NCBI GenBank assembly: GCA_018333865.1
Contig: JAGXSE010000018.1
Location: 1 to 56,113, forward strand
DNA length: 56,113 bases
DNA from: Syntrophomonadaceae bacterium
Lineage (GTDB): Bacteria; Bacillota; PH28-bin88
Reading direction: 5' to 3'
The notes beneath the pieces are model-generated. The model worked only from the letters and a program-made list of their open reading frames with translations, was not told the origin of the DNA and did not search any database. Both the position numbers and the translations under genes were made by a program. Shown one piece after another: positions 15,901-42,217 of the stretch (position 1 is the first letter of the stretch; every line of letters begins with the position of its first letter).

Positions 15901-15929
15901 ATTATATAATAGATCCAACGCTTGTGCAA
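15901..15929 (-). promoter_or_regulatory. Sigma-A promoter of ptb-buk-acd-etfBA
   Basis: On the minus strand TTGCAC and TATAAT are separated by exactly 17 bases, giving a leader of about 135 bases before the ptb start. The -10 box is a perfect match and the -35 matches four of six. Confidence 0.75.
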
Positions 15930-15938
15930 TCTTTCACA
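15923..15938. promoter_or_regulatory. CRP/FNR-like operator over the ptb -35 box
   Basis: Read on the minus strand this is TGTGA-AAGATT-GCACA, nine of ten half-site bases of the TGTGA-N6-TCACA pattern seen twice in the cooS region. It covers the -35 element, the position expected for repression. A Crp/Fnr regulator gene lies in the same window at about 41.5 kb. Confidence 0.5.
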
Positions 15939-34131: not shown

Positions 34132-34161
34132 TTGACATAAATCGCCCGCATATGGTATATT
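34132..34161 (+). promoter_or_regulatory. Promoter of the Phd-Uma2 fusion gene
   Basis: TTGACA and TATATT with an 18-base spacer, ending about 20 bases before the start codon. The -35 is perfect. Confidence 0.7.
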
Positions 34162-34181
34162 GTGGCTGGAGGTGTTTATTT

Positions 34182-34961
34182 ATGAAGCCAGTGTATTTAA
34201 AAGAGGGTGTTGTGATAACCGCTACGGAGCTTAAACAAAATTTCGGCAAGTATCTGGATTTTGTTGAAGAGCTGAACGACGTCGTGATCACAAAAAATGG
34301 CAGCAAAGTTGCCAGATTGACGCCCTATGTCACGGACATTGAGCAGTATTTTACCGTCCGGGAAAGGGCGCTCGACTATCAGTACGGTGGGAAAAAGGTT
34401 TCCTATGAAGAGTTCATGGAAATCAGCGAAAAAAGTACCTTAAGAATGGAATTTATTAATGGAGAAATTTATTTGCTCTCTTCTCCAAACCTCGGCCACC
34501 AGGAGCTGCTTGGCAGATTACACCTGTTATTTGCCGGTTATTTCAAAGGGAAAGAATGCAGGGTATTTTTGGCTCCCTTTGATGTGCACTTTAAAAAAAA
34601 GGAGATTAAAGAACCGGATGTTATGCAGCCGGACGTACTGGTTGCCTGCGACCTGAAGAATAATGTCACAGAAAAAGGGCGCTACATGGGTACTCCCACC
34701 CTGGTGGTTGAAATCTTGTCCGAAAGCACAAGAAACAAGGACATGATCGAAAAACTAAACACATACATGCTCTCAGGAGTCCGGGAGTACTGGATCATCG
34801 ACCTGAAACAGGAAAACTTCATGTTATATTCTTTTGCCGACTATAAAATTGACCGCTATAAACTTTTCGCAGCGGGTCAAGTGGTGCAGTCCATGATATT
34901 TCCCGGTTTGGCTGCGGATATCAGCAGTTTGTTTGCAGATCTGTATGACTCCGGCAAATAA
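34182..34961 (+). CDS. Phd/YefM antitoxin-Uma2 nuclease-fold fusion
   Basis: A 259-residue protein. Residues about 8-50 (VVITATELKQNFGKYLDFVE, then DVVITKNGSKVARL) match the Phd/YefM DNA-binding antitoxin domain. Residues about 70-255 match Uma2/DUF820, a PD-(D/E)XK nuclease-like fold: RMEFINGEIYLLSSPNLGHQ, MQPDVLVACD with the D, PTLVVEILSESTRNKDMIEK with the E and later K, and a YMLSGVREYWIID end. The ATG after GGAGGTG is clear. Phd domains usually neutralise a separate toxin; here the domain could position or restrain the nuclease fold in the same chain. Uma2 function in bacteria is unproven. Confidence 0.78.
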   Translation: MKPVYLKEGVVITATELKQNFGKYLDFVEELNDVVITKNGSKVARLTPYVTDIEQYFTVRERALDYQYGGKKVSYEEFMEISEKSTLRMEFINGEIYLLSSPNLGHQELLGRLHLLFAGYFKGKECRVFLAPFDVHFKKKEIKEPDVMQPDVLVACDLKNNVTEKGRYMGTPTLVVEILSESTRNKDMIEKLNTYMLSGVREYWIIDLKQENFMLYSFADYKIDRYKLFAAGQVVQSMIFPGLAADISSLFADLYDSGK

Positions 34962-35000: not shown

Positions 35001-35016
35001 TGTGATGTTAATCACA
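35001..35016. promoter_or_regulatory. Perfect CRP-type palindrome before DUF1858 gene
   Basis: TGTGA-TGTTAA-TCACA is a perfect inverted repeat of the TGTGA-N6-TCACA class. Its centre lies 51.5 bases upstream of the hexamer CATAAT (35060-35065), which would put it near -63, the class I activator position. The -35 region (CAGATA) is poor, as expected for an activated promoter. Confidence 0.7.
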
Positions 35017-35100
35017 TTTTTTTTTGTTCCTGTTTGCAGATAGGCTGCTCCAGAGGCTTCATAATAAAGCTGAATAATTTAGAAGAGGGGGTAAAAAGAA

Positions 35101-35316
35101 ATGGAACAAGCTATTCATAGAGACATGACTATTGGCAAGATCAGAGAAATTTGCCCAAGGGCCGATGAGGTGTTAGCCCGTTTTTTTGGCCCCGGATGCT
35201 TTGCCTGCCCAAACTCCCGGACCAAAAGCATCGAGTTTGGCGCCAGCGTCCATGGTCAGGATGTTGAGGAGGTAGTAGCTGAGCTAAACCAGTTAATGCT
35301 GAAGAACCAGCCCTGA
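35101..35316 (+). CDS. DUF1858 domain protein
   Basis: A 71-residue single DUF1858 domain (MTIGKIREICPRADEVLARF, then GPGCFACPNSRTKSIEFGAS). The CxxC pair at about residues 33-36 is typical and suggests disulfide or metal chemistry; the family has a ScdA/hybrid-cluster-associated fold and is common near nitrosative stress and Fe-S enzymes. It starts a set of redox genes behind the perfect CRP-type site. A second DUF1858 copy is fused to the siroheme protein 0.9 kb downstream. Confidence 0.85.
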   Translation: MEQAIHRDMTIGKIREICPRADEVLARFFGPGCFACPNSRTKSIEFGASVHGQDVEEVVAELNQLMLKNQP

Positions 35317-35391
35317 AAATCACGGCCGGAAATGAGAGGCTAAAACTTGGAGGGCTGTGGTAGATGTGTGTGTTTAAGGGAGGAATTTTTT

Positions 35392-35898
35392 ATGCAGTGG
35401 ACAACAGAAGCGCTGGCAGAGTTGGAAGCTATTCCCGAACATGTCCGGCCGATGGCCTTAAAAGCAATTGAGAACATGGCCAGGGAGCAGGGATCTGTTC
35501 AGGTTAGCAAAGAGCTGGTAGAAGTCGCTAAGGCCAAATACCTGGGAATAAATACAGGTGATTCCCGGCTGGTTAAAAAAATAGCTGTAGTCAGATGCGA
35601 GACTGTCTCTGAGGTATGCCCCGGGATTGGCTGTTTAAGCGCTTTCGCTGACCGGCGGGTGGCTTTTGAAGAGTATGACCGGGAAACACAGCTTTTGGCT
35701 TTTTTTACCTGCGGCGGTTGCAGCGGCCGGCGGGTGTCCCGGCTGGTGGAAAAGCTGGTTAAATATGGGGTCGATACTGTGCATTTAAGCTCCTGTATGA
35801 TTGCCGGCAAGGAGCACCCTTTTTGCCCCCACCGGGACCAGATAAAAAGAGCAATCGAGGTTAATGGCGTTAGGGTAATAGAAGGCACCCATTACTAA
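35392..35898 (+). CDS. PCP_red-CGGC fusion protein
   Basis: A 168-residue protein with two parts. Residues 1-50 (WTTEALAELEAIPEHVRPMA, IENMAREQGSVQVSKELVEV) match the PCP_red domain known from the C-terminus of light-independent protochlorophyllide reductase subunits and from small redox proteins. Residues 63-168 form a CGGC domain, with IAVVRCETVSEVCPGIGCLS, FFTCGGCSG (Cys 107 and 110), VHLSSCMI, FCPH and the ending VIEGTHY. The cysteines could hold a metal or cluster. The ATG follows GGGAGGAATTTTTT. It probably shares a transcript with the DUF1858 gene 75 bases upstream. Function unknown. Confidence 0.8.
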   Translation: MQWTTEALAELEAIPEHVRPMALKAIENMAREQGSVQVSKELVEVAKAKYLGINTGDSRLVKKIAVVRCETVSEVCPGIGCLSAFADRRVAFEEYDRETQLLAFFTCGGCSGRRVSRLVEKLVKYGVDTVHLSSCMIAGKEHPFCPHRDQIKRAIEVNGVRVIEGTHY

Positions 35899-35922
35899 CC
35901 AGTCCTTAGTGTTCAACTGTCC

Positions 35923-35938
35923 TGTGATAAAAATCACG
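35923..35938. promoter_or_regulatory. CRP/FNR-type site before the siroheme-cooS operon
   Basis: TGTGA-TAAAAA-TCACG differs from the perfect palindrome by one base. Its centre is again 51.5 bases upstream of a -10-like hexamer, TATTAT (35982-35987). The region in the -35 position reads CAGAAA, close to the CAGATA of the first promoter. Confidence 0.65.
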
Positions 35939-36032
35939 TTCACCCAAAACAAATGTCACAGAAAAAGATGTCCTCTCCTTCTATTATGGCCTTAGAGAAA
36001 TAAAACGAAATAAAAGCAAGGAGAGGATAAAG

Positions 36033-36914
36033 ATGAGCTTCACAAAAGAGATGACTGTAAAACAGGTGCTGGATTTAAACCCGAAAACAGCAGAAGTTTT
36101 TCGCAAACTGGGGATGCATTGCCTGGGGTGCCCTTCGGCTGTAGGGGAAACTGTTGCCGGGGCAGCCAGGACCCACAATTTGGACCTTAATCTTTTATTG
36201 CAGGAACTGAATGGCATTGAATATGGGGAATTATCCCCCGAAGCGATGGCAGAAGCAATGCCGGAAGGTGCAATTATCCAAAAAGACAAAGAGCACTTTG
36301 CCATTGTGCCACACCTGCCCGGCGGGCTGGTTGACCCGGGCACATTGCGCCGGATAGCCGAAGTGGCGGAAAAGTACGGGTGTGCGGCAATCAAATTAAC
36401 CTCTGCCCAGCGCCTGGCTCTGGTGGGACTGAAAAAAGAGGATGTTCCCAAGGCATGGGAAGATCTGGGCATGAAGCCAGGAGCGGCGCATGGGAACCGG
36501 GTGCGAAACATTAAATTCTGCCCGGGGGATGCCTTCTGCATCCGGGGAGAACAGGACGCGATTAATCTGGGGATGGCCCTGGATGCCCGTTACCATGGCA
36601 TGGAGCTTCCAGCTAAGATGAAGATGGCCGTAAGCGGCTGCCCGCGGAAATGCACTGATGCCAGTTCAGTGGATATTGGCGTGGTGGGGACTGCCACCGG
36701 TTACATGCTGCTGGTTGGCGGGTGTGGCGGTATTAAGCCCCGCCAGGGAAGGATGCTGGCCGAGGGTTTAAGCAAGGAAGAGGTGTTGGGACTGGTCGAG
36801 CGCATTGTCGGCTATTTCAGGGAACATGGCGAGCTAAACGAAAGACTGGGCAATCACATTGTCAGAGTTGGCTGGGAGGCATTCAAAGAAGCAGTGTTAA
36901 CTAAAGAGGCATAA
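36033..36914 (+). CDS. DUF1858-siroheme sulfite/nitrite reductase-like fusion
   Basis: A 293-residue protein. Residues 1-65 are a DUF1858 domain with the CLGC pair at 30-33. Residues about 80-290 match half of a nitrite/sulfite reductase: the ferredoxin-like half domain (HFAIVPHLPGGLVDPGTLRR, KLTSAQRLALVGL) and the siroheme-[4Fe-4S] site with Cys 163 and 169 (CPGDAFC) and Cys 203 and 207 (SGCPRKC). Normal reductases have two such repeats and over 500 residues; one-repeat proteins like this probably work as dimers. Substrate could be sulfite, nitrite or another small oxyanion. It is first in a run with cooS, 37 bases upstream of it. Confidence 0.82.
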   Translation: MSFTKEMTVKQVLDLNPKTAEVFRKLGMHCLGCPSAVGETVAGAARTHNLDLNLLLQELNGIEYGELSPEAMAEAMPEGAIIQKDKEHFAIVPHLPGGLVDPGTLRRIAEVAEKYGCAAIKLTSAQRLALVGLKKEDVPKAWEDLGMKPGAAHGNRVRNIKFCPGDAFCIRGEQDAINLGMALDARYHGMELPAKMKMAVSGCPRKCTDASSVDIGVVGTATGYMLLVGGCGGIKPRQGRMLAEGLSKEEVLGLVERIVGYFREHGELNERLGNHIVRVGWEAFKEAVLTKEA

Positions 36915-36950: not shown

Positions 36951-38849
36951 ATGAGCAACTGTCAATCTTGCAGCACGGCGGCAACCTGTGTTTCCGCCCA
37001 CCAGAGCGTCAACACCATGTACCAGCGGACCAAGAACATGGGCCTGAGCACTATCTTCGACCGCTACCAGGCCCAGCAGCCCCAATGCGGTTTTGGTATG
37101 CAGGGGGTTTGCTGCCAGTTGTGCAGCCATGGTCCGTGTCGGATTACCCCCAAAGCTCCGGCAGCCATTTGCGGCGCCACTGCCGATACCATTGTAGCCA
37201 GGAATTTGGTCCGCCTGGCAACCCACGGCGCGGCTGCCTACACCCATCATTTAGAGGAGTTAGCTAAAACCATCAAGGCAACAGCAGCTGGTAAAACTCC
37301 CTTCAAGATTGGTGACGAGCAAAAACTGCGGGAAATTGCCGGAATAGTAGGGCTGGATGCCACTAAACCTTCGGCAGAGCTGGCCGATGCCCTGGCCGAC
37401 GTGATCTTGGCGGAGCTACGTAAGGGCGCCGATGAACCCTTGGCCCTGGTAAATATCTTCGCTCCCAAAACCCGTCTGGAAGCATGGAACAAACTTGGGG
37501 TAATTCCAGGCGGCGTATTGAGCGAAGTCAGGGATGCCTTGACCAAGTCCATGAGCAACATCGATACCGACCCCATCGATCTCCTGTTGACAGTGGTGCG
37601 ACTGTCCATAGCAGCCGGCTATATGGGCCTGGTGGGCACCATCACCCTACAGGATATCCTGCTCGGGACTCCCAGCCTGACTACCAGCGAGGCTGATCTG
37701 GGGATCATTGACCCGGAAACCGTGAATATTGTGGCCCATGGCCACGTGCCCTTGGTAGCGACTGCCGTAATCCAGGCGGCTCAGACTGGGGAAATGCAGG
37801 CCCTTGCCCAGGAAGCCGGTGCAAAAGGCATCAAGGTTTACGGTTCCATGTGTACCGGCCAGGAGTTGATGCAGCGTAACGCCTCCAGCGCCAGCGGTTT
37901 TGCCGGACAGCTGGGCAACTGGCTGACCCAGGAATACTACGTGGCCACAGGGGCAGTGGACCTGGTGATGATGGATATGAACTGCTCCATCCCGGGCATG
38001 AAGACAGTAGCTGACCGCTTTCACACCAAGCTGGTGTCGGTAGACCGCATCCTAAGAATGGCCGGCGTGGACGAAAATGTGGATTACCATCCCGAGAAGG
38101 TGGCAGAACAGGCTAAACACCTGATCAAAATGGCGATTGAGGCCTACAAGAATAGAGGAGAGGACATCCTGATCCCCCAACACAAGTCTGGCGCCGTGGC
38201 CGGTTTTTCAGTGGAAACTATTCTGGGAGCCCTGGGCGGCAGCCTGGACCCGCTCCTGGAGGCTGTTAAGGCTGGAGCTATCAAGGGCATCGTGGCGGTG
38301 GTTGGATGCACCAATAACAAAAACGGCCACGATACAAAAGGCCTCACCATCATGAAAGAACTGATCAAGCGGGATATCCTGGTGATTAATGCCGGCTGCA
38401 TGTCCAGTGCCGCCGAAATCGATGGCCTGATGCTGCCAAAAGCAGCCGAATTGGCCGGGGAAAATCTAAAGGGTGTATGCAGGGCTTTGGGCATCCCACC
38501 CGTCTTAAACTTCGGTTCTTGTGTAGATATCGGGAGGATTGGCGTAGCCGTAACGGTAATCGCTAACGCGCTAGGTGTTGACCCAAGCGATCTGCCGGTG
38601 GCAGCCTCGGCCCCGGAGTATCTGGAGCAAAAGGCCGTTGTCGACGGAGTATTTGCGGTAGCCTTTGGCCTCTTGACCCATATTGGGCCAGTTCCGCCGG
38701 TAACCGGCAGCCCGCTGGTGACCAGGGTGCTGACCCAGGATATCGAATCCCTCTTAGGGGGCAAGGTGTACGTGGAAGAAGACCCGGTAAAGGCGGCGGC
38801 CGGCATGGAAGCTCATATCATGGCAAAAAGGGCTAAATTGGGAATCTAA
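36951..38849 (+). CDS. cooS: Anaerobic carbon monoxide dehydrogenase catalytic subunit
   Basis: A 632-residue nickel CO dehydrogenase, normal length for CooS, oxidising CO to CO2 with two electrons. The N-terminal cysteines that bind the D and B clusters are seen (CGFGMQGVCCQLCSHGPCRI), as are C-cluster regions (HGHVPLVATAVIQAAQ with its His, VYGSMCTGQELMQR, MMDMNCSIPGMKTVAD, VVGCTNNKNGHDT, INAGCMSSAAEIDG). No membrane part. It is followed by cooF and an FAD/NAD oxidoreductase, the layout seen in acetogens and carboxydotrophs where CO electrons go to NAD or a soluble acceptor. No CooC or hydrogenase gene is in the window. Confidence 0.95.
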   Translation: MSNCQSCSTAATCVSAHQSVNTMYQRTKNMGLSTIFDRYQAQQPQCGFGMQGVCCQLCSHGPCRITPKAPAAICGATADTIVARNLVRLATHGAAAYTHHLEELAKTIKATAAGKTPFKIGDEQKLREIAGIVGLDATKPSAELADALADVILAELRKGADEPLALVNIFAPKTRLEAWNKLGVIPGGVLSEVRDALTKSMSNIDTDPIDLLLTVVRLSIAAGYMGLVGTITLQDILLGTPSLTTSEADLGIIDPETVNIVAHGHVPLVATAVIQAAQTGEMQALAQEAGAKGIKVYGSMCTGQELMQRNASSASGFAGQLGNWLTQEYYVATGAVDLVMMDMNCSIPGMKTVADRFHTKLVSVDRILRMAGVDENVDYHPEKVAEQAKHLIKMAIEAYKNRGEDILIPQHKSGAVAGFSVETILGALGGSLDPLLEAVKAGAIKGIVAVVGCTNNKNGHDTKGLTIMKELIKRDILVINAGCMSSAAEIDGLMLPKAAELAGENLKGVCRALGIPPVLNFGSCVDIGRIGVAVTVIANALGVDPSDLPVAASAPEYLEQKAVVDGVFAVAFGLLTHIGPVPPVTGSPLVTRVLTQDIESLLGGKVYVEEDPVKAAAGMEAHIMAKRAKLGI

Positions 38850-38974: not shown

Positions 38975-39463
38975 GTGAAACGGATTACGGTAGCTGCGGA
39001 AAAATGCAATGGATGTCTGTCCTGCACTCATGCCTGTATGGCAGCCCATTCCGCCTCAGGAACAATTATGGGGGCTTTGGCCGAGGGAGTGCAGGCGCGA
39101 ATCCATGTGGAAGCGGTAAACGGGCGGCCAGTGCCTTTATTGTGCTGTCACTGTGAAGAGCCGGCCTGTGTAGATGCCTGCATGACCGGAGCCATGCAAA
39201 AGGACCCGGTAAGCGGCATAGTTGCCAACGAGGGCAACGAACAGGCTTGTGTTGGCTGTTGGATGTGTATTATGGCTTGCCCTTACGGGGTAATTGTGCC
39301 AAAGGCTGGTGAGCCGAGGATAGCTTTAAAATGTGACGGATGCAAGGACCGGCCGGTCCCCGCTTGTGTGGAGGGGTGCCCCAACTTCGCCCTGGTATGG
39401 GAGGAAGTTGACGCCTGTGCAGCCGGCAAGCGCCAAAGTGCAGCCAAGGAACTGGTGGCATAG
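38975..39463 (+). CDS. cooF: CooF-type ferredoxin-like electron carrier
   Basis: A 162-residue protein with four [4Fe-4S]-type cysteine groups (CNGCLSCTHACM, CCHCEEPACVDACMTGA, CVGCWMCIMACPYG, CDGCKDRPVPACVEGCP), matching CooF and related DMSO reductase-type iron-sulfur subunits. It takes electrons from CooS. The GTG start follows AAAGGAGGATTTCT. It lies between cooS and the flavin oxidoreductase, to which it probably delivers the electrons. Confidence 0.9.
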   Translation: MKRITVAAEKCNGCLSCTHACMAAHSASGTIMGALAEGVQARIHVEAVNGRPVPLLCCHCEEPACVDACMTGAMQKDPVSGIVANEGNEQACVGCWMCIMACPYGVIVPKAGEPRIALKCDGCKDRPVPACVEGCPNFALVWEEVDACAAGKRQSAAKELVA

Positions 39464-39509: not shown

Positions 39510-40772
39510 ATGGAGCATGTCATTATTGGCAGCAGCGCGGCCGGGGTTGCCGCGGCGGAAACCATCCGGCGCCTTGCCCCGGCGGATAATATCACCATGA
39601 TTTCTGCCGAAGCCGGCCCCGTTTATTCCCGTTGCCTCCTGCCCAATCTTTTGGCAGGCAGCCGCAGCGTGGACGGGTTGTTGTTCAGATCCAAAGATTT
39701 TTACAGAAAAAACCGGATCACGCCTATCCTGGGTGTAAGAGCAGACGGAGTAGATTCAGGTGCAAAAAACATTTTCTTGCAGGACGGACGCAAAATTCCC
39801 TATGACAAACTGCTGATTGCTACCGGTGCCAGCACGGCTATGCCTCCTGTTCCTGGCCTGGATGGTCCGGGAGTATTCGGATTAAGGAGCCTGGCAGATG
39901 CTCAGGGCATCCTGGCCAGAATTCCGGCAGTCCGGCGGGCAGTGGTTGTGGGAGCGGGACTGGTCGGTTTGGAAACAGCCTATGCCCTTTATCGTAGGGG
40001 TTTGGAAGTAACAGTTGTAGAAAAAATGTCTCAAGTTTTACCTAACCAGTTTGATCCTGTGGCGGCTTTTATCATCCTCAGGGAAATGCAGGCGGAAGGA
40101 ATCCGGTTTGTGCTGGGCCGAGGCATCAAGGAAATTGCCGGGCCAACTATGTGGCAAAGGCTTTTCGGCAAAAGCGGGATGGGAGTCGTCCTGGAGGATG
40201 GAGAGCGGCTGAAGGCAGAACTGGTGGTAGTGGCAACCGGTACCAGGTGTAATGTGGATCTGGCGCAGGGAAGCGGCATTCAGGTTAACCGGGGGATCAA
40301 GGTTAATGCCTATATGGCCACAAGTATCGCGGACATTTTTGCAGCCGGGGACGTAGCAGAGACGGTAGACCTGGTAACCGGCCAAGAGGGGTTAAGTCCA
40401 ATTTGGCCCAATGCAATCAACCAGGGTAAAATTGCAGGATTTAACATGGCTGGCGTAATGCGAAAATATTCTCCTCTGATCGGCCAGCAAAACGCGGTGG
40501 AATTCCGGGCATTGCCCGCCATTGCCGTGGGTCTCACAAACCCCAAGGGAGAGCAGTATGAAGTATTAATAAACCATTGTCCTGTCCGCAATCACTATAA
40601 AAAATTGGTACTGGATAAAGACAAGCTGGTAGGAATGGTCCTGGTCGGGGATATCAGCAAGGCCGGACTTTACGCAGGGTTAATCAAAAAGCGGGCCAAT
40701 GTCCAGCCCGTTAAGGATTGCTTGCTTGATCAGGGTTTCAGTTACGCCCATTTTCTTCGTCACTCAGCCTGA
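39510..40772 (+). CDS. FAD/NAD(P)-dependent oxidoreductase of the CooS cluster
   Basis: A 420-residue flavoprotein of the NADH oxidase/nitrite reductase-type two-dinucleotide fold. FAD site: VIIGSSAAGVAAAETIRRLA at residue 4 on and IADIFAAGDVAET later; NAD site: RRAVVVGAGLVGLETAYALY at about 145. The C-terminal 80 residues resemble the dimerisation domain. Together with cooS and cooF it forms the CooS-CooF-FNOR type unit thought to reduce NAD(P) with CO electrons. The ATG after GGGGAGGTGAATTT is clear. A good terminator follows. Confidence 0.85.
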   Translation: MEHVIIGSSAAGVAAAETIRRLAPADNITMISAEAGPVYSRCLLPNLLAGSRSVDGLLFRSKDFYRKNRITPILGVRADGVDSGAKNIFLQDGRKIPYDKLLIATGASTAMPPVPGLDGPGVFGLRSLADAQGILARIPAVRRAVVVGAGLVGLETAYALYRRGLEVTVVEKMSQVLPNQFDPVAAFIILREMQAEGIRFVLGRGIKEIAGPTMWQRLFGKSGMGVVLEDGERLKAELVVVATGTRCNVDLAQGSGIQVNRGIKVNAYMATSIADIFAAGDVAETVDLVTGQEGLSPIWPNAINQGKIAGFNMAGVMRKYSPLIGQQNAVEFRALPAIAVGLTNPKGEQYEVLINHCPVRNHYKKLVLDKDKLVGMVLVGDISKAGLYAGLIKKRANVQPVKDCLLDQGFSYAHFLRHSA

Positions 40773-40896: not shown

Positions 40897-41318
40897 TACA
40901 CCCCCACGATGAGGCGAACCGCCTCCTGGTACCTGGGATAGTTTTCCCCATACCGGCGGCTGACTTTTTCAATAAAATCCCCTACCGTACCTGGGTCGTT
41001 GCGGTAGATCAGGTTCCCATTTTTTATGATTCGGAAAGCAATGATATCAGGCAGTGAATTCAGCACCACCAGGTCAAAGGGGTGACCGTCTACAGGCGAT
41101 AAGCGGTTAATAATCTGGTTGGTTAGCCTCTCGTATTCCCTTTCCCGGCAGGGTTCCAGGGGTATGCATACCAGAGCGATGTCAATATCGCTGTCAGGAC
41201 GGCACATCCCCAGGGAGGAGCCGAAATGAAAAGCTCCAGCAACATCCTGAAATTCCCTGAGAATGGGAATTACCGTCTTGGCAATCATGGCAGTATCAAT
41301 GCGAACAAGACTGGCCAT
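40896..41318 (-). CDS. MntA-like minimal nucleotidyltransferase antitoxin
   Basis: A 140-residue nucleotidyltransferase. FHFGSSLGMCRPDSDIDIAL gives the GS-X9-DxD motif of the family, with a third Asp in HPFDLVVLN. MntA antitoxins add AMP groups to a tyrosine of the HepT RNase toxin. Here only the first codons of hepT remain, so the enzyme is an orphan that may be kept for another use or be fading. The catalytic residues look intact. Confidence 0.8.
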   Translation of the reverse strand: MASLVRIDTAMIAKTVIPILREFQDVAGAFHFGSSLGMCRPDSDIDIALVCIPLEPCREREYERLTNQIINRLSPVDGHPFDLVVLNSLPDIIAFRIIKNGNLIYRNDPGTVGDFIEKVSRRYGENYPRYQEAVRLIVGV

Positions 41319-41497
41319 TTCCGGCAGACCCCCTTGTTAATCCATTTTATGGCATTATTATATCTTACATCCCCTAGAGAATCAAGGAAGCAAACAAGGG
41401 GGCCGGTGTCTGCCCCCTTCCTGTCTGAAACAAAACAAACGAGGCTGATTATAAAAAGCAATCATTTTTATGACGCTTTCCGAGAGGAATAGTTTCA

Positions 41498-42217
41498 TTG
41501 TTGGAGAAGAATATAGACTATAGACGCGCTACAGGGGGCTTTTTAGTGGACAGCTTGCACAAATTAAGTTTTTTTGCCCGCATGCCCAAAGATACTTTGG
41601 ATTGGCTGGAACCATTAATGCCAGTCCGGCGGTATCTTCCCCGGCAACTCCTGTTCATGGAAGGGGAGCCGGCCGACTTTGTGGGTTTTGTCCTGGAAGG
41701 CAGGGTGAAACTGTACCGGGTGTCCTCGGAAGGACAGGAAAAAGTGGTCCATATTGCCACAGCCGGCGATGTGTTCGGGGAGTTGCCCTATTTTGATGGG
41801 AAGCCACACCCGTTAACAGCGGAAACCATGGAGGAAACCAGGGTCAGGCTCGTATCCCACCAGGATCTGGCCCGGCTCTGGCGGGAGCACCCTGAGGAGA
41901 CCGGCAGGGAATTTTTGCGGGTGGCCTCCCTCAGGTTGCGGCAAACCTACCGCCAGATCCGCAGCCTCACCTTTAAGGATGCCTATGCCCGTACCGCGGG
42001 GCGGTTGTATAAATTGGCCAGGGATTACGGGGTAAAAACAACTGAGGGAGTTGAGCTGTCCCTTACTTTCACCCAGCAGGAACTGGCAAACCTGATTGGC
42101 ACCTCCCGGGAAACCATGAGCAAGATCTTGAACAGCCTGCAAAAAAACCGCGTTCTGACGGCCAACCGGGGGCAAATCATTATTCTGGATATGGACAAAC
42201 TTCGCAAACATAGCTGA
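41498..42217 (+). CDS. Crp/Fnr family transcriptional regulator
   Basis: A 239-residue regulator with a cyclic-nucleotide-binding-type sensor domain (residues about 25-140: PRQLLFMEGEPADFVGFVLE, AGDVFGELPYFDGKPHPLTA), a long dimer helix and a C-terminal helix-turn-helix (FTQQELANLIGTSRETMSKI). The recognition helix SRETMSKIL resembles the CRP type RETVGR, which reads TGTGA. No FNR-type N-terminal cysteine cluster and no clear CooA haem ligands are seen, so the signal is open. TGTGA-N6-TCACA sites lie in front of the redox genes and the ptb operon. The TTG start follows GAGAGGAAT. Confidence 0.85.
   Translation: MLEKNIDYRRATGGFLVDSLHKLSFFARMPKDTLDWLEPLMPVRRYLPRQLLFMEGEPADFVGFVLEGRVKLYRVSSEGQEKVVHIATAGDVFGELPYFDGKPHPLTAETMEETRVRLVSHQDLARLWREHPEETGREFLRVASLRLRQTYRQIRSLTFKDAYARTAGRLYKLARDYGVKTTEGVELSLTFTQQELANLIGTSRETMSKILNSLQKNRVLTANRGQIIILDMDKLRKHS

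Follow-up and report, generated by a model that had tools for sequence, protein, structure and literature searches.

Two adjacent operons share a palindrome-to-hexamer spacing

We studied what the shared geometry of two neighbouring promoters marks in the window (the whole stretch of 56,113 nucleotides that was analysed). An earlier note had read this geometry as class I activation by a CRP/FNR protein encoded nearby. The promoters, hereafter A and B, and the genes that follow them are listed below.

35001 to 35016, + strand: palindrome A1, strong CRP/FNR-type, TGTGATGTTAATCACA, an exact match to the motif; predicted centre at about -63.5
35023 to 35038, + strand: degenerate second site A2, TTTGTTCCTGTTTGCA (6/10), 22 bp from A1; predicted centre at about -41.5, the class II position
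35060 to 35065, + strand: -10-like hexamer of promoter A, CATAAT (5/6); predicted transcription start near 35072
35101 to 35316, + strand: small DUF1858 protein (hybrid cluster protein-associated redox disulfide domain, TIGR03980), downstream of site A
35392 to 35898, + strand: PCP_red and CGGC domain protein, inferred to lie on one transcript with the DUF1858 gene
35923 to 35938, + strand: palindrome B1, strong CRP/FNR-type, TGTGATAAAAATCACG; predicted centre at about -63.5
35945 to 35960, + strand: degenerate second site B2, CAAAACAAATGTCACA, with a perfect downstream half TCACA (35956-35960); predicted centre at about -41.5
35982 to 35987, + strand: -10-like hexamer of promoter B, TATTAT (5/6); predicted transcription start near 35994
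36033 to 36914, + strand: DUF1858 and nitrite/sulfite reductase (NirB C-terminal-like) siroheme/4Fe-4S protein, downstream of site B
36951 to 38849, + strand: CooS, anaerobic CO dehydrogenase catalytic subunit (TIGR01702, 790 bits, cut-off 478)
38975 to 39463, + strand: CooF-like ferredoxin
39510 to 40772, + strand: FAD-NAD(P) oxidoreductase (FNOR)

Both palindromes are present as the earlier note had claimed, and so is their equal spacing: from the palindrome centre to the first base of CATAAT or TATTAT, the distance is 51.5 bp at both promoters. The bases it had assigned to the -35 position, CAGATA and CAGAAA, are indeed found there and are alike, but agree with TTGACA at just 3 of 6 positions each, and a consensus scan found no sigma-70 -35 element at its threshold at either promoter. 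We identified that both hexanucleotides start within the downstream half-site of A2 or B2, and that the degenerate sites overlap the place of the missing -35. The -41.5 (29.5 bp) place is occupied only by such degenerate sites, with a perfect TCACA at B and TTGCA (35034-35038) at A; for B2, the chance of a half-site matching at least 4/5 at that position was 0.03 in shuffles.

Two explanations without a regulator were weighed. Palindromes and -10 hexamers could have coincided by luck and post hoc choice. In shuffles, the probability of a 5/6 hexamer at one exact position was about 1% for each promoter; judged from the window alone, the coincidence is therefore modest and no more than suggestive. 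The spacing becomes convincing because it recurs at homologous operons of relatives and as a phylum-wide peak, and we regard chance as scarcely credible. Alternatively, A1 and the nine T downstream of it could be, or could also be, the intrinsic terminator of the upstream Phd-Uma2 gene: the RNA fold has -9.3 kcal/mol (z = -2.6), and the T run comes after it. However, the stem is AT-rich and was missed by the terminator scan, and B1 as well as the sites in the related genome PH28 and in Thermincola lack a comparable T run yet keep the palindrome and the spacing. We rejected this reading of A1 as very improbable given its weak, non-conserved stem. The upstream gene itself (34152-34961) fuses a Phd/YefM antitoxin domain and a Uma2-type nuclease domain in a single reading frame.

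The spacing differs from that of a classic class I site

For E. coli CRP, class I sites are centred at about -61.5 and class II sites at about -41.5. We conducted an unbiased search for palindrome-N{17,47}-TATNAT in 398 genomes, which gave 143 distinct sequences among the matches listed. A peak at 29.5 bp, equal to -41.5 and thus to classic class II, held 42 of the 143 among the matches listed. With this peak as internal calibration, 51.5 bp corresponds to -63.5, two bases off canonical class I. A second peak was found at 51.5-52.5 bp (18 among the matches listed; Poisson p ~1e-5 against 2.7 per position), whereas the textbook class I spacing of 49.5 bp (-61.5) showed no peak among the matches listed from the 398 genomes (3 sequences, with 2.7 per position as background). 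For want of a 49.5 bp peak, we rejected canonical class I spacing at -61.5. The proposal of the earlier note thus held in part: motif, geometry, conservation and regulon context argue for CRP/FNR-family activation of both promoters, but the simple class I geometry did not stand, and in its details the class I interpretation is probably mistaken.

We further found that 9 of the 18 sequences of the 51.5-52.5 bp class among the matches listed have, 22-23 bp from the palindrome, a half-site that matches TCACA at 4/5 or better; the background is 2%, and 1 of 18 other long-spacing sequences among the matches listed has one. The full pattern of palindrome, half-site and -10 gave about 56 matches compared with 11 for the reversed control (299 genomes, counted by hand). 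In a simple class I promoter, a single dimer centred at about -62 to -64 would contact the alpha C-terminal domain of the polymerase, and the downstream half-site would be incidental. Such a promoter would fit a strong palindrome at the upstream position only, the lack of a -35 match, and the moxR promoters of G004 and G015, which have the 51.5 bp spacing with poor half-sites, so that the second site is not universal. The weakness of A2 and a 52.5 bp sequence with no clear half-site (L067) also count against a tandem pair. The spacing peak and the in-register half-sites speak against simple class I activation, and we consider this explanation unlikely. Rather than one classic class I site, the 51.5 bp spacing most likely marks two activator sites that are 22 bp apart. 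The degenerate downstream site, at -41.5, explains both the spacing and the likeness of the bases in the -35 position.

The tandem arrangement recurs in relatives

The nearest relative with the operon is PH28_bin88 (G002, same family), where the order is DUF1858-D1858NIR-CooS-CooF-FNOR. There, AGTGATTTTCATCACA stands upstream of the DUF1858 gene, with TATGAT at exactly 51.5 bp, and TGTGAGTAAGATCACA upstream of cooS, with TAAAAT at exactly 51.5 bp. Since the second promoter lies before cooS in PH28 and before the siroheme gene in the window, inheritance of the sequence alone does not explain the second geometry. Second sites stand in register at 22 bp in PH28 as well, namely TTTGACTTAGCTTACA (8/10) at the DUF1858 ortholog, in the same register as A2, and CCGGAGACAGATCATA; TCACA or TCACG half-sites in the 22 bp register were found at three further PH28 promoters. 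On PH28 contig C77 (L238 4929-4993 and 8458-8522), two promoters besides those of the DUF1858 and cooS genes combine a palindrome, a TCACA/TCACG half-site and a -10 at exactly 51.5 bp. Both precede V4R-domain genes, and the same contig encodes the ortholog of the window regulator described below.

The same geometry was found in G013 (Thermincola-type) and G059 upstream of a homologous operon ending in the siroheme protein, and near-identical promoters occur in further Thermincola-type genomes. The 22-bp downstream half-site reads TCGCA in Thermincola and TCATA in G059. By eye, the siroheme-protein operon of one Thermincola-type genome and of G059 (L050, L047) opens with a SAM-dependent methyltransferase-like gene.

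As read from the printed sequences, Desulfosporosinus homologs carry a site at the class II position, and several have a second site 22 bp further upstream. Three Desulfosporosinus-type loci (L071, L079 and L082) contain a pair of CRP-type sites at a distance of 22 bp; the stronger site is at the class II place, which reverses the strength order of the window promoters.

Exact sites in the host genome point to a redox stress regulon

Genome-wide statistics of the host genome were based on pattern searches and retrieved stretches. In its 3.21 Mb, 55 palindromes with at most one mismatch were found compared with 28 for the reversed control, and six are exact; two within 1 kb, each upstream of one of two adjacent operons, are therefore unusual. 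The scan for TGTGA-N6-TCACA, a check named beforehand, placed four of the six exact sites upstream of genes: site A, hcp, the ccmE-ccmF operon (cytochrome c assembly) and trxB-trxA. The remaining two lie inside reading frames. Upstream of hcp (hydroxylamine reductase, 813 bits, cut-off 367), the exact site TGTGACACGCATCACA is followed by TAATAT at 29.5 bp. Among hcp upstream regions, 9 of 30 carry a site where 0.3 were expected, with the -10 mostly at 28.5-30.5 bp. Another palindrome of the window, TGTGCAATCTTTCACA (15923-15938), has identical copies on contigs C18, C39 and C56, and its unchanged repetition suggests a repeated element rather than a regulator site.

The exact sites before hcp, ccmE-ccmF and trxB-trxA make the regulon resemble that of HcpR, which responds to nitrosative and redox stress. 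Together with the DUF1858, CGGC, siroheme reductase and CooS-CooF-FNOR genes, the predicted gene set points to an HcpR-like nitrosative/redox stress regulon.

Two CRP/FNR-family proteins are candidate regulators

The first candidate is encoded in the window itself.

41498 to 42217, + strand: CRP/FNR-family regulator with a TSRETMSK recognition helix and no cysteines

The RETMSK helix reported earlier is thus confirmed, but the gene is not 4 kb away: its distance is 5.5 kb to site B and 6.5 kb to site A. The fold is evident from Pfam matches to PF00027 (1.2e-21), PF13545 (1.7e-18) and PF00325, which give a cNMP-type beta-roll and a Crp-type helix-turn-helix and place the protein in the CRP/FNR superfamily. 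A cAMP receptor (CRP proper) was rejected by alignment, in which PHPLTAE stands against PRTSSAT of M. tuberculosis CRP and Arg and Thr are replaced by His and Pro. FNR proper, or FNR-type cluster sensing, was rejected as well, with zero cysteines among the 239 residues. No site with at most two mismatches was found at 41001-41600 that would indicate autoregulation. R180/E181 go with TGTGA operators according to PMC1274295, and by this rule the RET helix fits TGTGA. A single ortholog of the window-type regulator was found among the 398 genomes, in PH28 (66-67% identity), which also has the CooS-linked operon and has this ortholog on one contig with two more 51.5 bp promoters.

The second candidate is a paralog with a RETVAR helix on contig C65 (44858-45493), which adjoins a MoxR-CoxE operon and has its own class II-like site, TGTAACAGAGGTCACA, with TAATAT at 29.5 bp. 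The neighbourhood of a CRP/FNR gene, a MoxR-type ATPase and a CoxE-like VWA protein is conserved across several families (C65 43000-48500 = L253; L242, L243, L244, L247 and L250), and CRP-type sites precede moxR in three of these six loci. The earlier suggestion that the nearby regulator acts on the sites is therefore plausible but not exclusive. The paralog might regulate these sites while the RETMSK protein acts elsewhere: G013 and G059, where the promoter occurs without a window-type regulator, have a member of its clade, and its neighbouring operon has such sites in its own genome, G004 and G015. Set against this are the position of the window-type regulator near the target, the narrow distribution it shares with the CooS-linked operon (n = 2 related genomes) and the linkage of its PH28 ortholog to further 51.5 bp promoters, so that we treat sole control by the paralog as a serious, though less probable, alternative. 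As judged from sequence, the RETMSK protein, the C65 paralog, or both may act at sites A and B.

A proposed tandem-site model

Taken together, the sequence comparisons suggest with fair likelihood that 35001-35065 and 35923-35987 would be activator-dependent promoters of one CRP/FNR-family regulon with tandem sites at -63.5 and -41.5, and that the regulator would most likely be the RETMSK protein. The location of the sites, upstream of the -10 and in place of the -35, leads us to infer activation and not repression. Bound to the strong site at about -63.5, one dimer would help another to occupy the weak site at about -41.5, and this second dimer would contact RNA polymerase in the manner of class II activation. 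The signal would be nitrosative or a related redox signal. The literature searched, with most subscription journals outside its reach, gave nothing relevant on tandem CRP sites 22 bp apart.

More speculatively, this may be a recurrent promoter type of the phylum, in which the strong site at -63.5 places the second dimer on the -41.5 half-site to give a sharper response than class II, and which would here give a nitrosative-stress regulator control over CO dehydrogenase and a DUF1858-siroheme reductase. If true, such a strong/weak promoter type predicts a role of CooS-CooF-FNOR in handling nitrogen oxides. One predicted CRP/FNR regulon would tie together the CODH-FNOR cluster, the uncharacterised DUF1858-siroheme and CGGC proteins, and hcp, and it suggests a testable nitrosative/redox stress function for the CODH-FNOR cluster. 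In these bacteria, palindromes that lie about 51-52 bp upstream of a -10 may be part of a strong/weak tandem pair, an alternative to class I.

Comparison with known systems

E. coli CRP belongs to the same protein family and shares the operator, and the 29.5 bp peak matches its class II distance of -41.5. In contrast to its class I distance of -61.5, the second peak here is at -63.5/-64.5, with a second half-site at -41.5.

HcpR of Desulfovibrio is a CRP/FNR-family regulator with the motif wTGTGAnnnnnnTCACAw; its regulon includes a sulfite/nitrite reductase-like cluster, and an HcpR site precedes the coo hydrogenase operon, according to PMC545781 and PMC1274295. Motif and hcp target are common to that regulon, as described there, and to this genome, where the operator likewise lies upstream of hcp. 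However, Desulfovibrio belongs to another phylum, the targets here are cooS-cooF-FNOR and the DUF1858/CGGC genes, and the likeness comes from operator and targets; the tandem 22 bp geometry is not mentioned in the consulted passages of the two HcpR descriptions. P. gingivalis HcpR shows a heme-dependent NO response involving Met68 (PMC12750200).

CooA-controlled coo operons likewise pair a CRP-family regulator with CO dehydrogenase genes. Control by CooA was rejected on the operator: the window sites read TGTGATNNNNATCACR (TGTGAT...ATCACA), whereas the CooA consensus is TGTCGGCNNGCCGACA in PMC545781. The window regulator has histidines but no cysteine. CooS-CooF-FNOR clusters are known in Geobacter, Clostridium and Desulfotomaculum (PMC4703632, PMC6344411), and their three-gene core is identical to that of the window. 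The Geobacter cluster has RcoM, whereas the window adds the DUF1858-siroheme gene and the CRP-type promoters; as far as seen, both additions are specific to the present setting. The promoter type is a variation on known CRP/FNR regulation.
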